Assembly (NCBI GenBank): GCA_015521115.1
Contig: WAOT01000014.1
Span: 1 to 64,000 of the forward strand
Length of the DNA stretch: 64,000 nucleotides
Source of the DNA: Desulfurococcales archaeon
Lineage (GTDB): Archaea > Thermoproteota > Thermoprotei_A > Sulfolobales > Acidilobaceae
Direction of reading: 5' to 3'
Shown: piece by piece, positions 9,146-62,906 of the stretch
How positions within the stretch are numbered: the first letter of the stretch is position 1
How the letters are laid out: each line of letters starts with the position of its first letter
Program-made: the position numbers and the translations under genes
The notes under the pieces: model-generated
Told to the model about the DNA's origin: nothing
What the model saw: only the letters and a program-made list of their open reading frames with translations
The model's database searches: none

Positions 9146-9631
9146 ATGGAGGATGTGGGTGCCTCAGACGAGCATGTGATAGATGAGAGGGTAGATGCGG
9201 AGGGAGAGGTTCCATTAGCTGTCTACATCGTTATAGCATTCTTCGTCTCACTCGTCTTTCTCACGCTAGGCGGAGTCGGAGGGCCAAGGCTTGTCAGTAT
9301 CGTGGCGTGGGGTCTCCTCGTAGTGTATATACTAGTTGTAACGAGCAAGGACTATGAGATGTACTCTTGGATAGTAGCTCTAGCCCTCCTCACTCTACAC
9401 GTGGGTGCCGTCTTATCATACTATTCCCACCCAGAGATACTACCGTTCTTCATAATAGAGAGGGATATAAAGGATGGCGTCGTCGTCCATGAGAGTGTGA
9501 ACTTTGACTTTGTACAGCTTGTTATACTAGCAGAGATCATCCGCTACCTGATATCACGAAAAAGATATAAGAGCCCCGCCGGTTATGAAACCAGTCTGGA
9601 CTCGGGCGGGGAGGAGGCCGCGGTAGTATAG
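9146..9631 (+). CDS. small integral membrane protein, function unknown
   Basis: A 161-residue protein with an acidic N-terminal tail of about 25 residues and three clear hydrophobic segments (around residues 25-48, 52-70 and 76-92). A fourth weaker one follows near residue 130, and the end is charged. I do not recognise the family. The ATG coincides with the predicted transcript start, suggesting leaderless translation. Its last 15 bases overlap the 5' end of the tRNA-Glu gene, and the probable tRNA promoter lies inside its coding region. Confidence 0.6.
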   Translation: MEDVGASDEHVIDERVDAEGEVPLAVYIVIAFFVSLVFLTLGGVGGPRLVSIVAWGLLVVYILVVTSKDYEMYSWIVALALLTLHVGAVLSYYSHPEILPFFIIERDIKDGVVVHESVNFDFVQLVILAEIIRYLISRKRYKSPAGYETSLDSGGEEAAVV

Positions 9632-9694
9632 CCCGGCCCAGTATGCGGGCCTCTCGAGCCCGTGACCCGGGTTCAAATCCCGGCCGCGGCACCA
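9617..9694 (+). tRNA. tRNA-Glu (anticodon CTC)
   Basis: The cloverleaf can be drawn in full: acceptor GCCGCGG with CCGCGGC, a D stem of GTAT/GTAT with G-T pairs, anticodon stem CGGGC/GCCCG around loop CTCTCGA, and T stem CCGGG/CCCGG with loop TTCAAAT. CCA is encoded after discriminator A. No intron is seen. A TATA-like sequence (gatataag) lies near 9563-9570 inside the upstream coding region. The first 15 bases overlap the end of that gene. Confidence 0.95.
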
Positions 9695-15669: not shown

Positions 15670-16074
15670 TTACTCTACTGCAAACAGTTTATATCTCTTT
15701 ACCTCGACCTCATATCCCAGCTCCTTAAGCCCTTCTATTATTATGTCTTCTGGAACTCTCTTGTCGAAAACTACGATAACCTTCTTCTTACCTCCCTCTT
15801 TTATCAATTTCACCTTATCAACTATAACCCTCCCAAGGATCATATCGTTCATGCTCTTCTGTGGAACTAAGTAGTCTTTGAACTTCTTTCTCATGACATC
15901 ATAGAAGGCGTCAAAGTTTCTTACGATCCTGAAGAACTCGTTAACATCGTTTGGTTCCATCCCAAGTCTGTCAACGACATACTTAACCAGCCTCTCAGCC
16001 TCTTCGACGCTTAGCTCTACACTCTTGTACTTACCCATGTCTATTTCTACCGTTTTCACCGCCACTGCCCACAC
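15670..16074 (-). CDS. conserved-looking hypothetical protein
   Basis: A 134-residue soluble alpha/beta protein with helices in the first two thirds and a VKLIKEGGKKKVIVVFDKRV strand pair near the end. It ends in a beta-alpha-beta unit (GLKELGYEVEVKRYKLFAVE). No family is recognised. The frame opens with GTG at 16074; an ATG twelve codons in is an alternative start. It is convergent with the Rpo13-like gene (4 bases apart) and divergent from PCNA across an AT-containing promoter gap. Confidence 0.6.
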   Translation of the reverse strand: MWAVAVKTVEIDMGKYKSVELSVEEAERLVKYVVDRLGMEPNDVNEFFRIVRNFDAFYDVMRKKFKDYLVPQKSMNDMILGRVIVDKVKLIKEGGKKKVIVVFDKRVPEDIIIEGLKELGYEVEVKRYKLFAVE

Positions 16075-16155: not shown

Positions 16156-16911
16156 TTGGGAGTGATTAGGGTAGTTTATGGTGCAGCGTCCAAGTTCAAG
16201 TATGTAACGCAGGCCCTCGCTAAGATAAACGATGAGGGGATATTCTTCTTCACCCCTGAAATGTTAGCAGCCAACGTCTTAAGCCCCGATAAAGTCACTA
16301 TGGCTATACTGAAGATGCCGATAACGAGCTTTGACGAGTTTAGTGTTGACGAGGAGATCGCTCTACTTGTAAGAATAGATGAGCTGAACAAGGTTATAAA
16401 GAGGGCGACACGTAACGATAACCTCATACTCGAATATGACACTGAACAACAGATGCTGAGTGTATCCCTCGCTGATAGAAAAACCGGAGTCCTCAGGCAG
16501 TTCGAGGTCACATCCACCCCATTGGCCGAGGCCAAGTTTAAAGAGCCTAAGGCAGAGTTCACTGTTAGAGCCCAGATGGAGACTGACGACTTCAAATCCA
16601 TCATCCAAGACGCAAAAGTCGTGGGCGACCTGATAGTTTTCGAGGCGAAGGAGGATATGCTAATCGTAGAGGTAGAGGGAGAGGAGAAGATGTACAGGTG
16701 GGAGATGAGAGAGGGAGACCCGCTCATAATGCTAGTAGTGGAGGAGGAGAGCAAGAGCGCCTATACAAGGCAGTCGCTCGAGGCTGCAACAAAGCCTACG
16801 GGTGCTGCTGAGACCGTGAAGCTAAGCTTCTCAACCGACTTCCCACTACAACTGGAGTTCACACTACCAAACGGGGAGAAGCTCGTCATGTATACCGCTC
16901 CCTCAGTCTAA
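16156..16911 (+). CDS. pcn: DNA polymerase sliding clamp (PCNA)
   Basis: Replication processivity clamp. The 251-residue length and the two-domain repeat with a central interdomain linker (near residues 118-130) match archaeal PCNA. Recognisable segments include the N-terminal helix FKYVTQALAKINDEG and the C-terminal FSTDFPLQLEFTLPNGEKLV. Crenarchaea usually have three PCNA paralogues that form heterotrimers; which subunit this is cannot be told here. The start is either TTG at 16156 or GTG at 16162. tttatacag at 16119-16127 is a TATA candidate. The stop overlaps the neighbouring zinc protein gene by 4 bases. Confidence 0.93.
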   Translation: MGVIRVVYGAASKFKYVTQALAKINDEGIFFFTPEMLAANVLSPDKVTMAILKMPITSFDEFSVDEEIALLVRIDELNKVIKRATRNDNLILEYDTEQQMLSVSLADRKTGVLRQFEVTSTPLAEAKFKEPKAEFTVRAQMETDDFKSIIQDAKVVGDLIVFEAKEDMLIVEVEGEEKMYRWEMREGDPLIMLVVEEESKSAYTRQSLEAATKPTGAAETVKLSFSTDFPLQLEFTLPNGEKLVMYTAPSV

Positions 16912-17216
16912 CTTTTCCTCCTCTTCCTCCTACCCGCTCTACCCGCCTTACTGACGCTTATCGTCTCAATAATGCTCTCGTCAACTGTGAGTACACGCCG
17001 TGGAGCCCTTCTCCTCCCCTCCCCACTGAGGATTTCTGTCTTCAACACTATTTTGAGAGGCGTTCGCCTGCATGTAGACACTATCCCCAACGAATATAGG
17101 GATATGTAACAGTAGGGGCAAAGCTTCATGCTCCTCCCACCGACCAAGCACTCCGCTGTAGGCGTTCTACGGCCGCAAAGGTCACACCTATCCCATGAAA
17201 GAGTGTTTCGGGGCAT
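16908..17216 (-). CDS. small zinc-ribbon protein with basic tail
   Basis: A 102-residue protein with CDLCG near residue 11 and CPYC near residue 36, a treble-clef or zinc-ribbon spacing. A short middle domain follows, and the C-terminus is strongly basic (GRAGRRKRRKS). The N-terminal ribbon resembles that of archaeal MBF1 (multiprotein bridging factor), but the helix-turn-helix that should follow is absent, so the assignment is only a similarity. ggaggtga sits 8 bases before the ATG. A conspicuous three-way-junction sequence lies in its presumed 5' leader. Confidence 0.65.
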   Translation of the reverse strand: MPRNTLSWDRCDLCGRRTPTAECLVGGRSMKLCPYCYISLYSLGIVSTCRRTPLKIVLKTEILSGEGRRRAPRRVLTVDESIIETISVSKAGRAGRRKRRKS

Positions 17217-17263
17217 CCAATGTTCACCTCCAGCGTAAGCCCCTCATCCCTCACCGCGGGCTA

Positions 17264-17324
17264 CCCCAACGGGCCTGCCGGAGCGGTGTGGCCCGCCGCG
17301 GATGCCGCGGCTCATAGGTTGGGG
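17264..17324. ncRNA. candidate structured RNA: perfect three-way junction
   Basis: Three perfect helices abut without linkers. P1 is ccccaac (17264-17270) with gttgggg (17318-17324). P2 is gggcc (17271-17275) with ggccc (17290-17294). P3 is gccgcgg (17295-17301) with ccgcggc (17305-17311) around a 3-base loop. The only unpaired junction bases are tcatag (17312-17317). It is far richer in GC than its flanks, as is usual for RNA genes in hyperthermophiles. On the minus strand it lies in the leader of the zinc-ribbon gene, and a TATA-like taattaag near 17352-17360 would start transcription about 25 bases before it. No tRNA T-loop, C/D or ACA box was found. Confidence 0.5.
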
Positions 17325-17352
17325 CACCATCTATAGTGGTATACCGCCACCC

Positions 17353-18117
17353 TTAATTAGGAGGTTGGGCCTTAAACAGTTGTTTGAAGCGGACTGCGTC
17401 ATAGTATGAATATACATTGTTGAACATCACGTACACCCTCTTTGAGGTTAGCCCTTCCACTATCTCTAATAATCTCCTAAGATCATCATCAGTATATTTG
17501 TATTTATAGTTTACTTCTTTTCCTCCCAAACCGTGGAGTCTCCCATATGCTATGTCTGCCTCCGCCGGTGGGAGCCGTCCTCTTAAGAAATCTCCGGCTA
17601 TGATCACGTCGTACTCGTTGGCTATCTTAGACAGTAGCTCTCTATTGTCCCACCATTCCCCTCTCGGCTCCCATGCCAGTAAGTGCCCGCGTCGGGGGGC
17701 TTTGCTTAGGAAGTTGGTGACTGATTTGATGTTGTCGCGTGTAGGTGTGAAGGAAGCAGGCGTCTGGAGGACTATTATTCTCGCTTTCAGAGCTTCCGCC
17801 GCGTTGAGTGTCTCCTCCCATGCCCACCAGACTTCTTCGGTATCCTGGAAGGAGCCATAGTTCTCTACTCTGCCTGGAACCTCTCTCTTAAGCCTCTTCC
17901 ATAGCATCTTATTGTAATTGTGTGTCACTAGCATCCACGCTTTGACAGTAAACTCGAAGGTCTCGGGTGCCTCCTCCCGTAACCTTATCAGCCTCTCCCT
18001 GGGGGGAGGGTCGTAGAAAGTCTCCTGGATCTCGACTGCGTCGAGATCCCTGAAGATGAGCTTACGGCTCTTAGAGAAGCCGCAAGTCCCTACTATGACC
18101 TCTTTCATTAGAGCCAC
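17353..18117 (-). CDS. DUF72 (YecE-like) TIM-barrel protein
   Basis: A 254-residue protein with the DUF72 hallmarks: GTCGFSKSRK at the N-terminus, VEIQETFY, FEFTVKAWMLVTH, a middle strand with LQTPASFTP, LAWEPRGEWW, YGRLHG and the closing YVMFNNVYSYYDAVRF. The family has a TIM-barrel-like fold and is widespread, but no reaction is firmly known. It may bind nucleic acid or a nucleotide. The ATG start lies next to the gap shared with signal peptidase. Confidence 0.85.
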   Translation of the reverse strand: MALMKEVIVGTCGFSKSRKLIFRDLDAVEIQETFYDPPPRERLIRLREEAPETFEFTVKAWMLVTHNYNKMLWKRLKREVPGRVENYGSFQDTEEVWWAWEETLNAAEALKARIIVLQTPASFTPTRDNIKSVTNFLSKAPRRGHLLAWEPRGEWWDNRELLSKIANEYDVIIAGDFLRGRLPPAEADIAYGRLHGLGGKEVNYKYKYTDDDLRRLLEIVEGLTSKRVYVMFNNVYSYYDAVRFKQLFKAQPPN

Positions 18118-33201: not shown

Positions 33202-33540
33202 ATATGGGGCCTGCCCCGGCTGGCGGCTACGGCCCGCGAGGGCCGAGGAAACTCCACCCTCCCCGCGGCGCCCGGGCCCCGCAAGGGGCGCGGGTGAGAC
33301 CCGCGGCAACGGCACAGAAACGACACGGCCCCCGCGAGGATGGCAATGACCCCGCGAGGCCCTTCGGGCAACCGGGGGGCAGTAACCGGGGGAGGACTCC
33401 GGGGGATGCGGTGAAACGGCCGCCCCCGGGGGAGCAAGGGCTGGAGGGGATGAGGGCCGCGCGAGCCCTCCGGCATGGTCCGCTGAGTCGGATGCCGCCG
33501 TAGTACAGAAGGTGGGTTATAGCCGGGGCAGGCCCTATAT
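33202..33540 (+). ncRNA. rnpB: RNase P RNA
   Basis: The catalytic RNA that matures tRNA 5' ends. A nearly 20-bp P1 helix joins 33202-33221 with 33521-33540. The universally conserved 5' core is present as gaggaaactcc (33240s), then the gggtgagaccc and cgcggcaacggcacagaaac core, and finally acagaaggtgggttat near the 3' end. GC content is far above the flanks, as expected for a stable RNA in a hyperthermophile. Several reading frames over this region are chance. The strand is fixed by the order of the conserved regions. Confidence 0.95.
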
Positions 33541-52324: not shown

Positions 52325-53872
52325 ATGTCAGAAGCGGCTGGCCGGGTGTATGTGGCCGATCTGAGTGCTATACTGGATGGCACAGTGATAAGGCTGCTAG
52401 AGCAGGGCGAGATAGCGGGGCGGCTATTGATACACCGTGTCATTATCGAATACCTGTACTCACAGGCTAGACTGGGGAAAACGGTTGGGATAGCCGGTTT
52501 AGAGGATGTGTCAAAGCTTGCATCATATTCGTCAGATCTAGTTGAGGTCGTAATAGTAGATGATGATAGGTGGAGGAACTTCAGGGAGCTAGATGAGGAG
52601 ACTGTTAAGAGGGCTATAAGAGAGTATGCCTGGAGATCCCAAGCCACACTGATAACCAGTGACTCCCTTCAGGCAAGAGCCGCTAAAGCGCTAGGAGCTG
52701 ACGTGCTCCTAATAGAGCCGGGCCGTGAGAGGGGAGGCCTGAGAATAGAGGAGTACTTTACAGAGAAGACTATGAGTGTCCACCTCAAAGAGGGTGCACC
52801 ACCCATAGCGAAGATCGGCCGCCCAGGTAGATGGGCTTTCGTTAAGCTGAGTAGCGAGCCCCTCACGAGAGCTGAGCTGGAGGCTATAGCGAGGGAGATA
52901 ATGGAACACGCTTCTCGCATGGAGGAAGGATTCATAGAGATCGACAGGTTCGGGAGCACAATCGTCCAGCTGAGAGACTATAGGATAGTGATAACACGGC
53001 CCCCACTCAGTGAGGCATGGGAGATAACCGCGGTCAGACCGGTAAAGAAGCTTAAACTAGAAGACTACAACCTACCGGAGAAGCTCCTGAACAGGCTGAT
53101 GGAGAGGGCTGAGGGCATCCTAATTGCAGGCGCCCCTGGAATGGGTAAGACGACCTTCGCACAGGCACTGGCCGAGTGGTATGCCTCCCACGGGAAAGTA
53201 GTGAAGACCATAGAGTCTCCCAGGGACATGAAGCTCCCACCAACAATAACACAATACTCTAAGAACTACGCTGACCTGGGAGAACTACATGATATCCTCC
53301 TACTCTCCCGACCCGATTACACCGTCTACGACGAACTCAGAAGCGACGAGGACTTCCGCCTATACGTCGACCTGAGACTGGCAGGTATAGGGATGGTGGG
53401 AGTAGTCCACGCTACAACCCCTATCGACGCAATCCAGAGGTTCATAGGTAGAGTTGAGCTGGGAATGATACCTAGCATAATAGACACCGTCATATTCATA
53501 GACAAGGGCGAGGTCTCCAAGGTGTTAGACATAAGCATAACGGTCAAACTACCAACCGGTCTGAGGGAGGCCGACCTCGCAAGGCCTGTGGTAGAGGTTA
53601 AGGACTTCCTAACTGGCGAGCTCGAATACGAGATATACACCTTTGGAGAGCAGACAATGGTCATACCCGTTAAGGGGAGGAAGGCTGACAAGACGGACAT
53701 GATAGCTAGACTAGTCAAGAGGATAATCCCGGAGGCCGAAGTCGAGGTCAGGGACGGGGTTCTAATAGTAAGGATCCCAAGGCATACTCCAAGGCTGACA
53801 GCTAGGAAGATTAAGAGGATAAGAAAGCTAGCGGAAAAGAACGGGCTAGAGGCGAGGATAATACCCTTCTAA
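52325..53872 (+). CDS. PINA-type PIN-domain/KH ATPase
   Basis: Fused PIN nuclease-like domain and hexameric ATPase. The PIN part (residues about 1-140) has VADLSAILDGTVIR and TLITSDSLQARAAKALGADV. The ATPase part has Walker A in AGAPGMGKTTFAQAL, a Walker B-like YDELRSDEDFR and VVHATTPIDAIQRFIGRVELGM, and the chain ends with KH-like strands. In Sulfolobus, PINA binds Hjc and drives Holliday-junction branch migration. Here the Hjc gene lies immediately downstream on the other strand, overlapping by 4 bases, which supports that role. The ATG has a gcgattgag upstream. Confidence 0.88.
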   Translation: MSEAAGRVYVADLSAILDGTVIRLLEQGEIAGRLLIHRVIIEYLYSQARLGKTVGIAGLEDVSKLASYSSDLVEVVIVDDDRWRNFRELDEETVKRAIREYAWRSQATLITSDSLQARAAKALGADVLLIEPGRERGGLRIEEYFTEKTMSVHLKEGAPPIAKIGRPGRWAFVKLSSEPLTRAELEAIAREIMEHASRMEEGFIEIDRFGSTIVQLRDYRIVITRPPLSEAWEITAVRPVKKLKLEDYNLPEKLLNRLMERAEGILIAGAPGMGKTTFAQALAEWYASHGKVVKTIESPRDMKLPPTITQYSKNYADLGELHDILLLSRPDYTVYDELRSDEDFRLYVDLRLAGIGMVGVVHATTPIDAIQRFIGRVELGMIPSIIDTVIFIDKGEVSKVLDISITVKLPTGLREADLARPVVEVKDFLTGELEYEIYTFGEQTMVIPVKGRKADKTDMIARLVKRIIPEAEVEVRDGVLIVRIPRHTPRLTARKIKRIRKLAEKNGLEARIIPF

Positions 53873-54336
53873 CCAAGATACCTGTCTAACCTTTCGCTCC
53901 GACGGAATAGGATTTCCTCTAATTCAACAAGCTTCAACCCAGCCTCCGGCCTATCAACCCTTAGCCTCCCACCACGCGTTTCATGGAGGCCGTCTAAGAA
54001 GTGAAAACGCCACCCCCTATACGCTATCTTAACCGCGACTACAGCCCTCCCGCCACTCCTCTCCTGAAGTTCCCGGAGGCCCACGACCTGGTGTGGTGGG
54101 ATATATATGGGTCTCCCCTCCCTCCCCTTCTTCACCTCTATGATAAGCACTACGCCTTTCTTAACCGCAATTAGATCAGGCTGAAACCTCCTCCTAGCCG
54201 CGGATCCGCTCGAGGGCCCCCTAACTACAGCGTAGCCCCTATCCCATAGTAGGTTTGCTAGCTCGTTCTCAAGCCTGGTGGCGTCCCGTTTTGACACCAA
54301 GAGCCACGCACCATTATGAGAGGGAGTAGTGGACAA
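53869..54336 (-). CDS. hjc: Holliday junction resolvase Hjc
   Basis: Archaeal four-way-junction nuclease. The fold signature is NELANLLWDRGYAVVRGPSS, RFQPDLIAVKKGVVLIIEVKKG (PD-ExK with the catalytic D, E and K), and the HQVVGLRELQERSGG helix followed by VVAVKIAYRGWRFHF. 155 residues is slightly longer than the usual 130-140. It converges on the PINA gene with a 4-base overlap. Confidence 0.9.
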   Translation of the reverse strand: MSTTPSHNGAWLLVSKRDATRLENELANLLWDRGYAVVRGPSSGSAARRRFQPDLIAVKKGVVLIIEVKKGREGRPIYIPPHQVVGLRELQERSGGRAVVAVKIAYRGWRFHFLDGLHETRGGRLRVDRPEAGLKLVELEEILFRRSERLDRYLG

Positions 54337-56897: not shown

Positions 56898-57671
56898 CTA
56901 CTCCAGTTTTTTAAGCACCTCTATCGCGACCATATAAAGTATAGTCTCCTCCCTCGCCACCCGCTCCAAGTCAGCCTCGAACTCGTCCATGCTCCTCACA
57001 ATGGTCGACTCGGCGAACGGCTCCGTAGCCCCCGTCATAACGAGCAGGGATATTGCCTCCAAGCCGGGCAGCTCATACTGCATGGCATAGAGGGGAGCAC
57101 TCACAGAGTCTGCAGCGGCTATCCACCTCCTCCCCGTGAGGCCGCGGATCTTCTCAATATAGTGCCTTAAGTGTGGTGATGCCACAGTAACTGTTACCCC
57201 ATAGACCCAGTTGAAGTCTGAGAACCTGCTCTCTATCATCTCCCTGAACACACTCTCTATCCTATAGGAGGGTAGAAGTGGGAGCTGGCCTGCAATAGCC
57301 CGGCTAACGTCATCCATCGGCACAGCTCCCCTGACAACTAAAGCCGCCCTGGAGGGCATCTTCCTTGAAAGCCTATGCCCCCCGGAGATCGCTACCACCT
57401 GCCGCACACCGAACGCGTAGAGCTCCGACACGGCTTCCACAACGGCTTGGGGGTAGGGAGGGATCTGGACTACGATCACATCAGTGTCCGCCTGGCGCCC
57501 TGCAATACTCCTAAACCCTGTCTTCCCACTCCTCTCACTGGTTATCCTCTCAATACCCTTACGGATATTATCGAACGCCTGGCTACTATCAACTAGGACT
57601 GCCTTACTGATCCCGCTGACTCCATAAAGCCCTGTGATCGTCCCGACACCCATATACTCCATCACAGGCAC
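56898..57671 (-). CDS. nucleoside phosphorylase-family protein
   Basis: A PNP/UDP-phosphorylase-like fold: GVGTITGLYGVSGISKAVL, GVRQVVAISGGHRLSRKMPS, GAVPMDDVSRAIAGQLP, GVTVTVASPHLRHYIE and the ELPGLEAISLLVMTGATEPF region that holds the substrate-binding Glu. Such enzymes cleave nucleosides with phosphate. The distance from canonical motifs is appreciable, so a non-canonical substrate is possible. ATG starts at 57671 and 57662 are both plausible. Confidence 0.7.
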   Translation of the reverse strand: MPVMEYMGVGTITGLYGVSGISKAVLVDSSQAFDNIRKGIERITSERSGKTGFRSIAGRQADTDVIVVQIPPYPQAVVEAVSELYAFGVRQVVAISGGHRLSRKMPSRAALVVRGAVPMDDVSRAIAGQLPLLPSYRIESVFREMIESRFSDFNWVYGVTVTVASPHLRHYIEKIRGLTGRRWIAAADSVSAPLYAMQYELPGLEAISLLVMTGATEPFAESTIVRSMDEFEADLERVAREETILYMVAIEVLKKLE

Positions 57672-57746
57672 CCCGGGGGGTCACATTTATAACTAGACCC
57701 GGGTTAGGGTATTACGGGAGGGGGGAATAAAAAGGGGGGTGAGCAT

Positions 57747-62829: not shown

Positions 62830-62906
62830 GGGCCCGTAGCTCAGCCCGGTAGAGCGCCCGGCTCATAACCGGGTGGTCGGGGGTTCAAATCCCCCCGGGC
62901 CCACCA
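62830..62906 (+). tRNA. tRNA with anticodon CAT (elongator Met or Ile2)
   Basis: Acceptor GGGCCCG with CGGGCCC, D stem GCTC/GAGC, anticodon stem CCCGG/CCGGG around CTCATAA, T stem GGGGG/CCCCC with TTCAAAT, and an encoded CCA. The anticodon stem lacks the three G-C pairs of the initiator, so it is either elongator tRNA-Met or tRNA-Ile2 whose C34 would be changed to agmatidine. No intron is visible. Confidence 0.93.

Follow-up and report, generated by a model that had tools for sequence, protein, structure and literature searches.

A conserved crenarchaeal small RNA gene with the features of a circularly permuted H/ACA guide and a predicted target at 23S rRNA U2493

The window, by which we mean the whole 64,000-nucleotide stretch analysed (positions 1 to 64,000 of contig WAOT01000014.1 from a Desulfurococcales archaeon), carries on its minus strand a gene for a zinc-ribbon protein of 102 residues with a basic tail. 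This protein has no Pfam or NCBIfam family and has relatives in 51 of 98 genomes, and in most genomes with relatives its gene adjoins the RNA described here and the genes for PCNA and a DUF72 protein. A second protein without a Pfam family, of 134 residues, is encoded at 15670-16074 (minus strand); its gene is conserved as a neighbour of PCNA in most relatives and, in the family that we label f7, immediately follows the RNA. The window also holds an archaeal RNase P RNA (33211-33531, plus strand), a tRNA-Glu (9617-9694, plus strand) and a tRNA-Met (62830-62906, plus strand). A preliminary description had placed an RNA with a perfect three-way junction at 17264-17324, correctly locating it upstream of the zinc-ribbon gene on the minus strand, and had suggested that it might be a small RNA or a leader switch of that gene.

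The three helices of the junction, of 7, 5 and 7 bp, are indeed present and form the minimum-energy fold of the isolated 61-base piece. This piece is structured beyond chance, as had been proposed: the plus strand folds at -39.9 kcal/mol (z -3.4, with 1 of 200 shuffles as good), and the minus strand at -36.3 kcal/mol (z -3.4) in much the same way. However, the junction is no longer the minimum-energy fold once 20 bases of flank are added on each side, and over the conserved boundaries of the RNA the minus strand reaches -51.8 kcal/mol with the conserved stems P0, P1 and P2, compared with -34.3 kcal/mol for the three-way junction. In an alignment of 21 relatives read in the minus sense, 12 pairs change on both sides against 5.4 in shuffles, none of 500 shuffles reaches 12, and unconstrained RNAalifold on this alignment returns the same rod core. 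The junction itself fares poorly in these relatives. Its 5-bp helix (GGGCC/GGCCC) is identical to P2 and covaries, but its two 7-bp helices show no pair changed on both sides and are broken in many relatives. The junction fold is an artefact of excising 61 bases, and that it should be the functional fold is virtually out of the question.

A first search, using 201 bases around the element against 98 relatives, gave matches of about 85 bases in many genera of the window's own family and in a second family, and these matches extend beyond the low-coordinate end of the span first reported. Delimited by a covariance model (R1) and two alignments (A1 and A2), the conserved RNA is about 88 bases long and lies on the minus strand (Table 1), so that the earlier span covers roughly two thirds of it but misses its 3' third (17239-17263). 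R1 matches the window at 17237-17326 with 95.9 bits on the minus strand versus 10.5 bits on the plus strand; no other permuted relative in the window is convincing, the next R1 match reaching 15.9 bits (57654-57729, E 0.08). The RNA is single-copy in the window's own genome, which rules out a repeat element, and, as the preliminary description had stated, it matches no Rfam family. Conservation in relatives, which that description had named as a check, was found: R1 detects the RNA in 60 heat-loving archaea, out of 214 genomes of the order; the carriers belong to five families (f1, f4, f7, f9 and f10), and twelve-odd genera of the same order are without it. R1 found no such RNA outside these five families when run on 398 sampled genomes of the phylum, and a looser search of 38 match-less genomes returned only two weak, unconvincing matches. 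These two, in genus g11 (L171 and L172, at 22 and 17.8 bits), were not accepted, having no clear ANA triplet at the right spacing. The RNA nearly always occurs once per genome. Genome G005 has two copies (L113, 3765-3853, and L114, 3797-3884) that differ slightly in their guide arms and may reflect duplication or contamination.

Across the 60 copies, 90% of the expected pairs are formed, two-sided changes occur at 18 of 24 pairs, and covariation scores 0.455, compared with 0.150 for shuffled and at most 0.102 for slid alignments. The structure supported by these sequences is a rod consisting of an outer stem (P0), a kink-turn, P1, an internal loop, P2 and a variable loop. In the transcript the parts follow one another as P0, the kink-turn strand CC-NRU-GA, P1, YAUCCGCGG, P2, ACA, the variable linker, P2', nnGGGUAGn, P1', GA-GG and P0'. 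Stem cells hold 71 G-U against 14 A-C combinations, and this large excess of G-U identifies the minus strand as the RNA strand. A TATA-like peak of A+T content (0.92 across 60 relatives) lies at -29 from the first model position and, given the usual archaeal TATA spacing, would put the transcription start at the 5' end of P0. A pairing of AUCC with GGGU across the internal loop was tried and rejected: only 75.7% of its cells are paired, versus 96-97% for P1 and P2, and it is broken in the AAUC type. Because of this weaker pairing and its loss in the AAUC type, we reread the two strands as guide arms.

Table 1. Coordinates of the RNA, its predicted parts and related features. Positions are those of the window unless a locus label is given.
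Feature	Position	Strand	Evidence
Whole conserved RNA, P0 to P0'	17239..17326	-	Covariance model on window; alignments A1, A2
TATA-like box of the RNA gene (TAATTAA); overlaps the stop codon of DUF72	17353..17359	-	A+T peak
P0, 5' strand (GCCCC)	17321..17325	-	Both-side changes in 4/5 pairs (A1) and 5/5 (A2)
Kink-turn bulged strand CC-UAU-GA	17312..17318	-	Three-base bulge and GA; GA facing GA in 50/60
P1, upper stem, 5' strand (GCCGCGG)	17305..17311	-	Both-side changes in 7/7 pairs (A2)
Putative 3' guide arm of pocket (C-AUCCGCGG)	17296..17304	-	Pairs with 23S CCGCGGUU before U2493
P2, lower stem, strand then ACA (CGGGCC)	17290..17295	-	Both-side changes in 4/6 pairs (A2)
ANA box (ACA), 15 nt past P1	17287..17289	-	ACA 58/60, AUA 2/60; spacing 15 nt (58), 16 nt (2)
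Variable linker from ACA to lower stem, putative joint of the permutation	17276..17286	-	6-21 nt; column identity 0.36, versus 0.99 for ANA
P2, lower stem, other strand (GGCCCG)	17270..17275	-	Pair changes in A2
Putative 5' guide arm of pocket (UUGGGGUAG-C)	17260..17269	-	Pairs with 23S CUACCUC after U2493-G2494
P1, upper stem, 3' strand (CCGCGGU)	17253..17259	-	Pair changes in A2
Kink-turn non-bulged strand GA-GG	17249..17252	-	Kink-turn count in 60 copies
P0, 3' strand (GGGGC)	17239..17243	-	Pair changes in A1, A2
Neighbouring zinc-ribbon gene, outside the RNA	16908..17216	-	Shares the RNA's strand in f1 only
Canonical-order H/ACA RNAs of family f6	L154 1501..1573; L152 1501..1571; L151 1501..1572	+; +; -	Rfam HgcG, below gathering score

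Archaeal H/ACA guides carry an ANA box 14-16 nt from the upper stem, a GA stem of 8-11 layers and a kink-turn 5-6 nt above the pocket (PMC4652768; PMC7991803). The RNA of the window and its relatives shows this set of features. P2, the internal loop and P1 correspond to lower stem, pocket and upper stem, with covariation and in rotated order; the triplet after P2 is ANA in every one of the 60 copies, always within the 14-16 nt range; and P1 ends, on the side away from the pocket, in the kink-turn. The 6-7 pairs of P1 and two G-A pairs give a GA stem of about 9 layers, which stays at 9 unless a variable pair beside the pocket is counted, most productive guides having 10. Both guide arms surround a U-N in a stable RNA, 23S rRNA, at U2493, a match that is weak in genome G026. 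What is not found is a continuous hairpin followed by a 3'-terminal ACA, since the ACA lies in the loop of P2 and the ends of the RNA lie in P0; we therefore call it a variant and not a canonical H/ACA member. If the unconserved linker is taken as a joint and P0 as an opened apical loop, all the rules hold, and the RNA becomes an H/ACA unit with its halves exchanged. The C (RUGAUGA), D (CUGA), C' and D' boxes of a box C/D sRNA, by comparison, were not seen: no CUGA is conserved, and the GA elements sit within one kink-turn.

The ordinary archaeal H/ACA order is lower stem, 5' arm, upper stem, kink-turn, apical loop, kink-turn, upper stem, 3' arm, lower stem and ACA. In the proposed arrangement the apical loop would be open and hold both ends of the RNA, the linker of 6-21 bases would join the ACA box to the lower stem, and folding would return every part to its usual place. 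The kink-turn is the predicted binding site of L7Ae, and the stems and ACA box are those of Cbf5, Nop10 and Gar1; the pocket would then present U2493 of 23S rRNA (E. coli numbering) for pseudouridine formation. From comparative sequence evidence, the minus-strand small RNA gene at about 17239-17326 very probably specifies a pseudouridylation guide of the H/ACA type whose parts are circularly permuted. It also seems likely that it represents a natural circularly permuted H/ACA class in five crenarchaeal families, linear, with both ends at the kink-turn and the ACA in a closed loop, and guiding a predicted pseudouridylation of U2493. We infer that the RNA is transcribed, bound by these proteins, directs modification and acts as a linear molecule without joining of its ends.

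Targets were scanned in the 11 genomes that hold both a guide and a 23S rRNA, with each arm fixed at one base's distance from the upper stem, following the 10/5/9 fold, and with 500 shuffled guides per genome for comparison. This stricter fixed-arm scan supersedes an earlier one that used loose offsets. In 10 of the 11 genomes, each offering 709-1211 uridines, the top-ranked one is the U in 5'-CCGCGGUU-U-G-CUAC. None of the 500 shuffled guides is as good in G017, G025, G063, G072 and G097, and a single one is in G082 and in G176; the result is weaker in G113 (15/500), G012 (24/500) and G102 (49/500). In G026 the site ranks second and 266 of 500 shuffled guides are as good, which is not significant. 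The window's assembly is without rRNA, and its guide was tested via G017, whose arms are identical. When each guide's best rank among the reference rRNAs is used, the site comes first in at least one of them for 56 of the 60 guides. Its position, checked on E. coli rrlB, corresponds to U2493 in E. coli numbering, which we place in helix 89, next to the peptidyl transferase centre.

Guide and target change together in part: at its fifth base, the 3' duplex has G-C in G017, G025 and G063, G-U in G012 and U-A in G072, G082 and G176, with a mismatch in G113, G102 and G097. Arms of the AUCC type are mismatched (U-U) at their second position. In the guides of genera g4 and g12 (L121, L122, L124 and L126) the 3' arm has drifted to AUCCGGGG, so that it is mainly the 5' arm that matches U2493, and these guides possibly have a different target. 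No pseudouridine at 2493 was found in the searchable literature, whose coverage is incomplete.

We also rotated 17 of the sequences to canonical order and built from them a second model, R2, whose E-values are a guide only, the joins being random four-base sequences and a few apical regions having been trimmed by hand. R2 matches RNAs of another family, f6, over its full length, with a lower stem, pocket, upper stem, GAG/CGAUGAG kink-turn and 15 nt to the ACA. These RNAs are in normal order and have other guide arms, and Rfam assigns them to HgcG/Pab40 (E 2e-10, 1.2e-6 and 0.003, below the gathering score). The R2 matches together with this independent assignment show that the permuted RNA, once rotated, picks out genuine H/ACA RNAs. 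The Rfam HgcG model (RF00064) gave no match to the permuted RNAs of the window, L073, L079 and L119, and a canonical-order form of the same guide was found in none of the 214 genomes.

Comparison with described systems places the RNA closest to the archaeal H/ACA guides with a kink-turn, such as the Pyrococcus Pab RNAs with 10/5/9 and 10/6/9 folds (PMC4652768). Shared with them are a lower stem then ANA, a two-arm pocket, an upper stem with 14-16 nt to the ANA, a kink-turn, and an rRNA target with an unpaired U-N; the RNA differs in having its ends at the kink-turn and its ACA inside a closed loop, not at the 3' end. HgcG/Pab40 (RF00064) belongs to the H/ACA class and HgcG-like RNAs are what the rotated model recovers in f6, but HgcG has the normal order and other guide arms. 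The H/ACA-like sRNAs of Pyrobaculum (PMC4652768) are likewise crenarchaeal H/ACA variants of unusual shape, but they are without a lower stem and keep the normal order. A canonical guide for position 35 of tRNA-Tyr is known in A. pernix (PMC4652768), and its target is unlike that predicted here. sRNA24 of Nanoarchaeum equitans (PMC3491384) is an archaeal guide RNA gene in permuted order; it is, however, a single case of the C/D class that needs a circle for its order, whereas in the proposed H/ACA arrangement, spread over five families, the fold restores the order. No permuted H/ACA RNA was found in the searchable literature, again with incomplete coverage.

The genomic neighbourhood bears on the suggestion that the RNA is a structured 5' leader of the zinc-ribbon gene, acting as a riboswitch or letting a protein (the zinc-ribbon protein, or L7Ae via the kink-turn) control translation. 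Kink-turns in leaders are a known route of regulation by L7Ae (PMC5539422), and in f1 the RNA and the zinc-ribbon gene share a strand, with the gene second; in the window its start codon lies about 20 nt past the RNA, and the two may share a transcript. In f9, f10 and f4, however, the RNA occupies the same place and is oriented toward DUF72, and away from the zinc-ribbon gene wherever one was found; in f7 it is divergent, toward another gene; and in G013 the RNA and the zinc-ribbon gene are 2 kb apart. A leader would keep a constant place upstream on the strand of its gene, and the shared strand is seen in f1 only. Since orientation to the gene flips between families, the RNA is not the zinc-ribbon leader, and the TATA-like box stays put with the RNA where the orientation flips. 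A leader would moreover leave the guide arms and the ACA spacing without explanation, and we consider this reading, including the leader switch of the preliminary description, exceedingly unlikely.

A kink-turn RNA of some other class, for example an L7Ae-bound structural or regulatory RNA whose likeness to H/ACA guides arose by convergence, would fit the permuted ends, which are seen in no described H/ACA RNA. It is nevertheless very improbable: the ANA, the 15-nt spacing, the pocket, the kink-turn and a first-ranked rRNA target would all have to coincide, and the rotated model finds H/ACA RNAs that Rfam recognizes. A nearer alternative is an H/ACA-type guide that becomes active only once its ends are joined into a circle, as with the permuted C/D sRNA24 of N. 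equitans. Archaea have circular guide RNAs, the sole reported permuted C/D sRNA is circular (PMC3491384), and P0 brings the ends of the RNA together; yet the TATA-like box puts the transcription start at P0, and joining is needless when the fold already restores the order. We regard the circle as rather unlikely, and it parts from the linear permuted guide that we favour in the last step only.

If the linear permuted guide is real, it would provide a widely conserved circular permutation in guide RNA outside the C/D class, it would mean that the guide particle depends on the fold, with strand order dispensable, and a functional site of the archaeal ribosome would gain a predicted modification. 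Such a class would be invisible to H/ACA searches and to Rfam because these look for a hairpin and then ACA. The predicted partner gene cbf5 is present in each of the 10 genomes searched for it, including that of the window. On contig 20 of genome G000, cbf5 lies in two adjacent pieces (53180-53374 and 53389-54162), as it does in several relatives, an arrangement consistent with the known crenarchaeal cbf5 intron.
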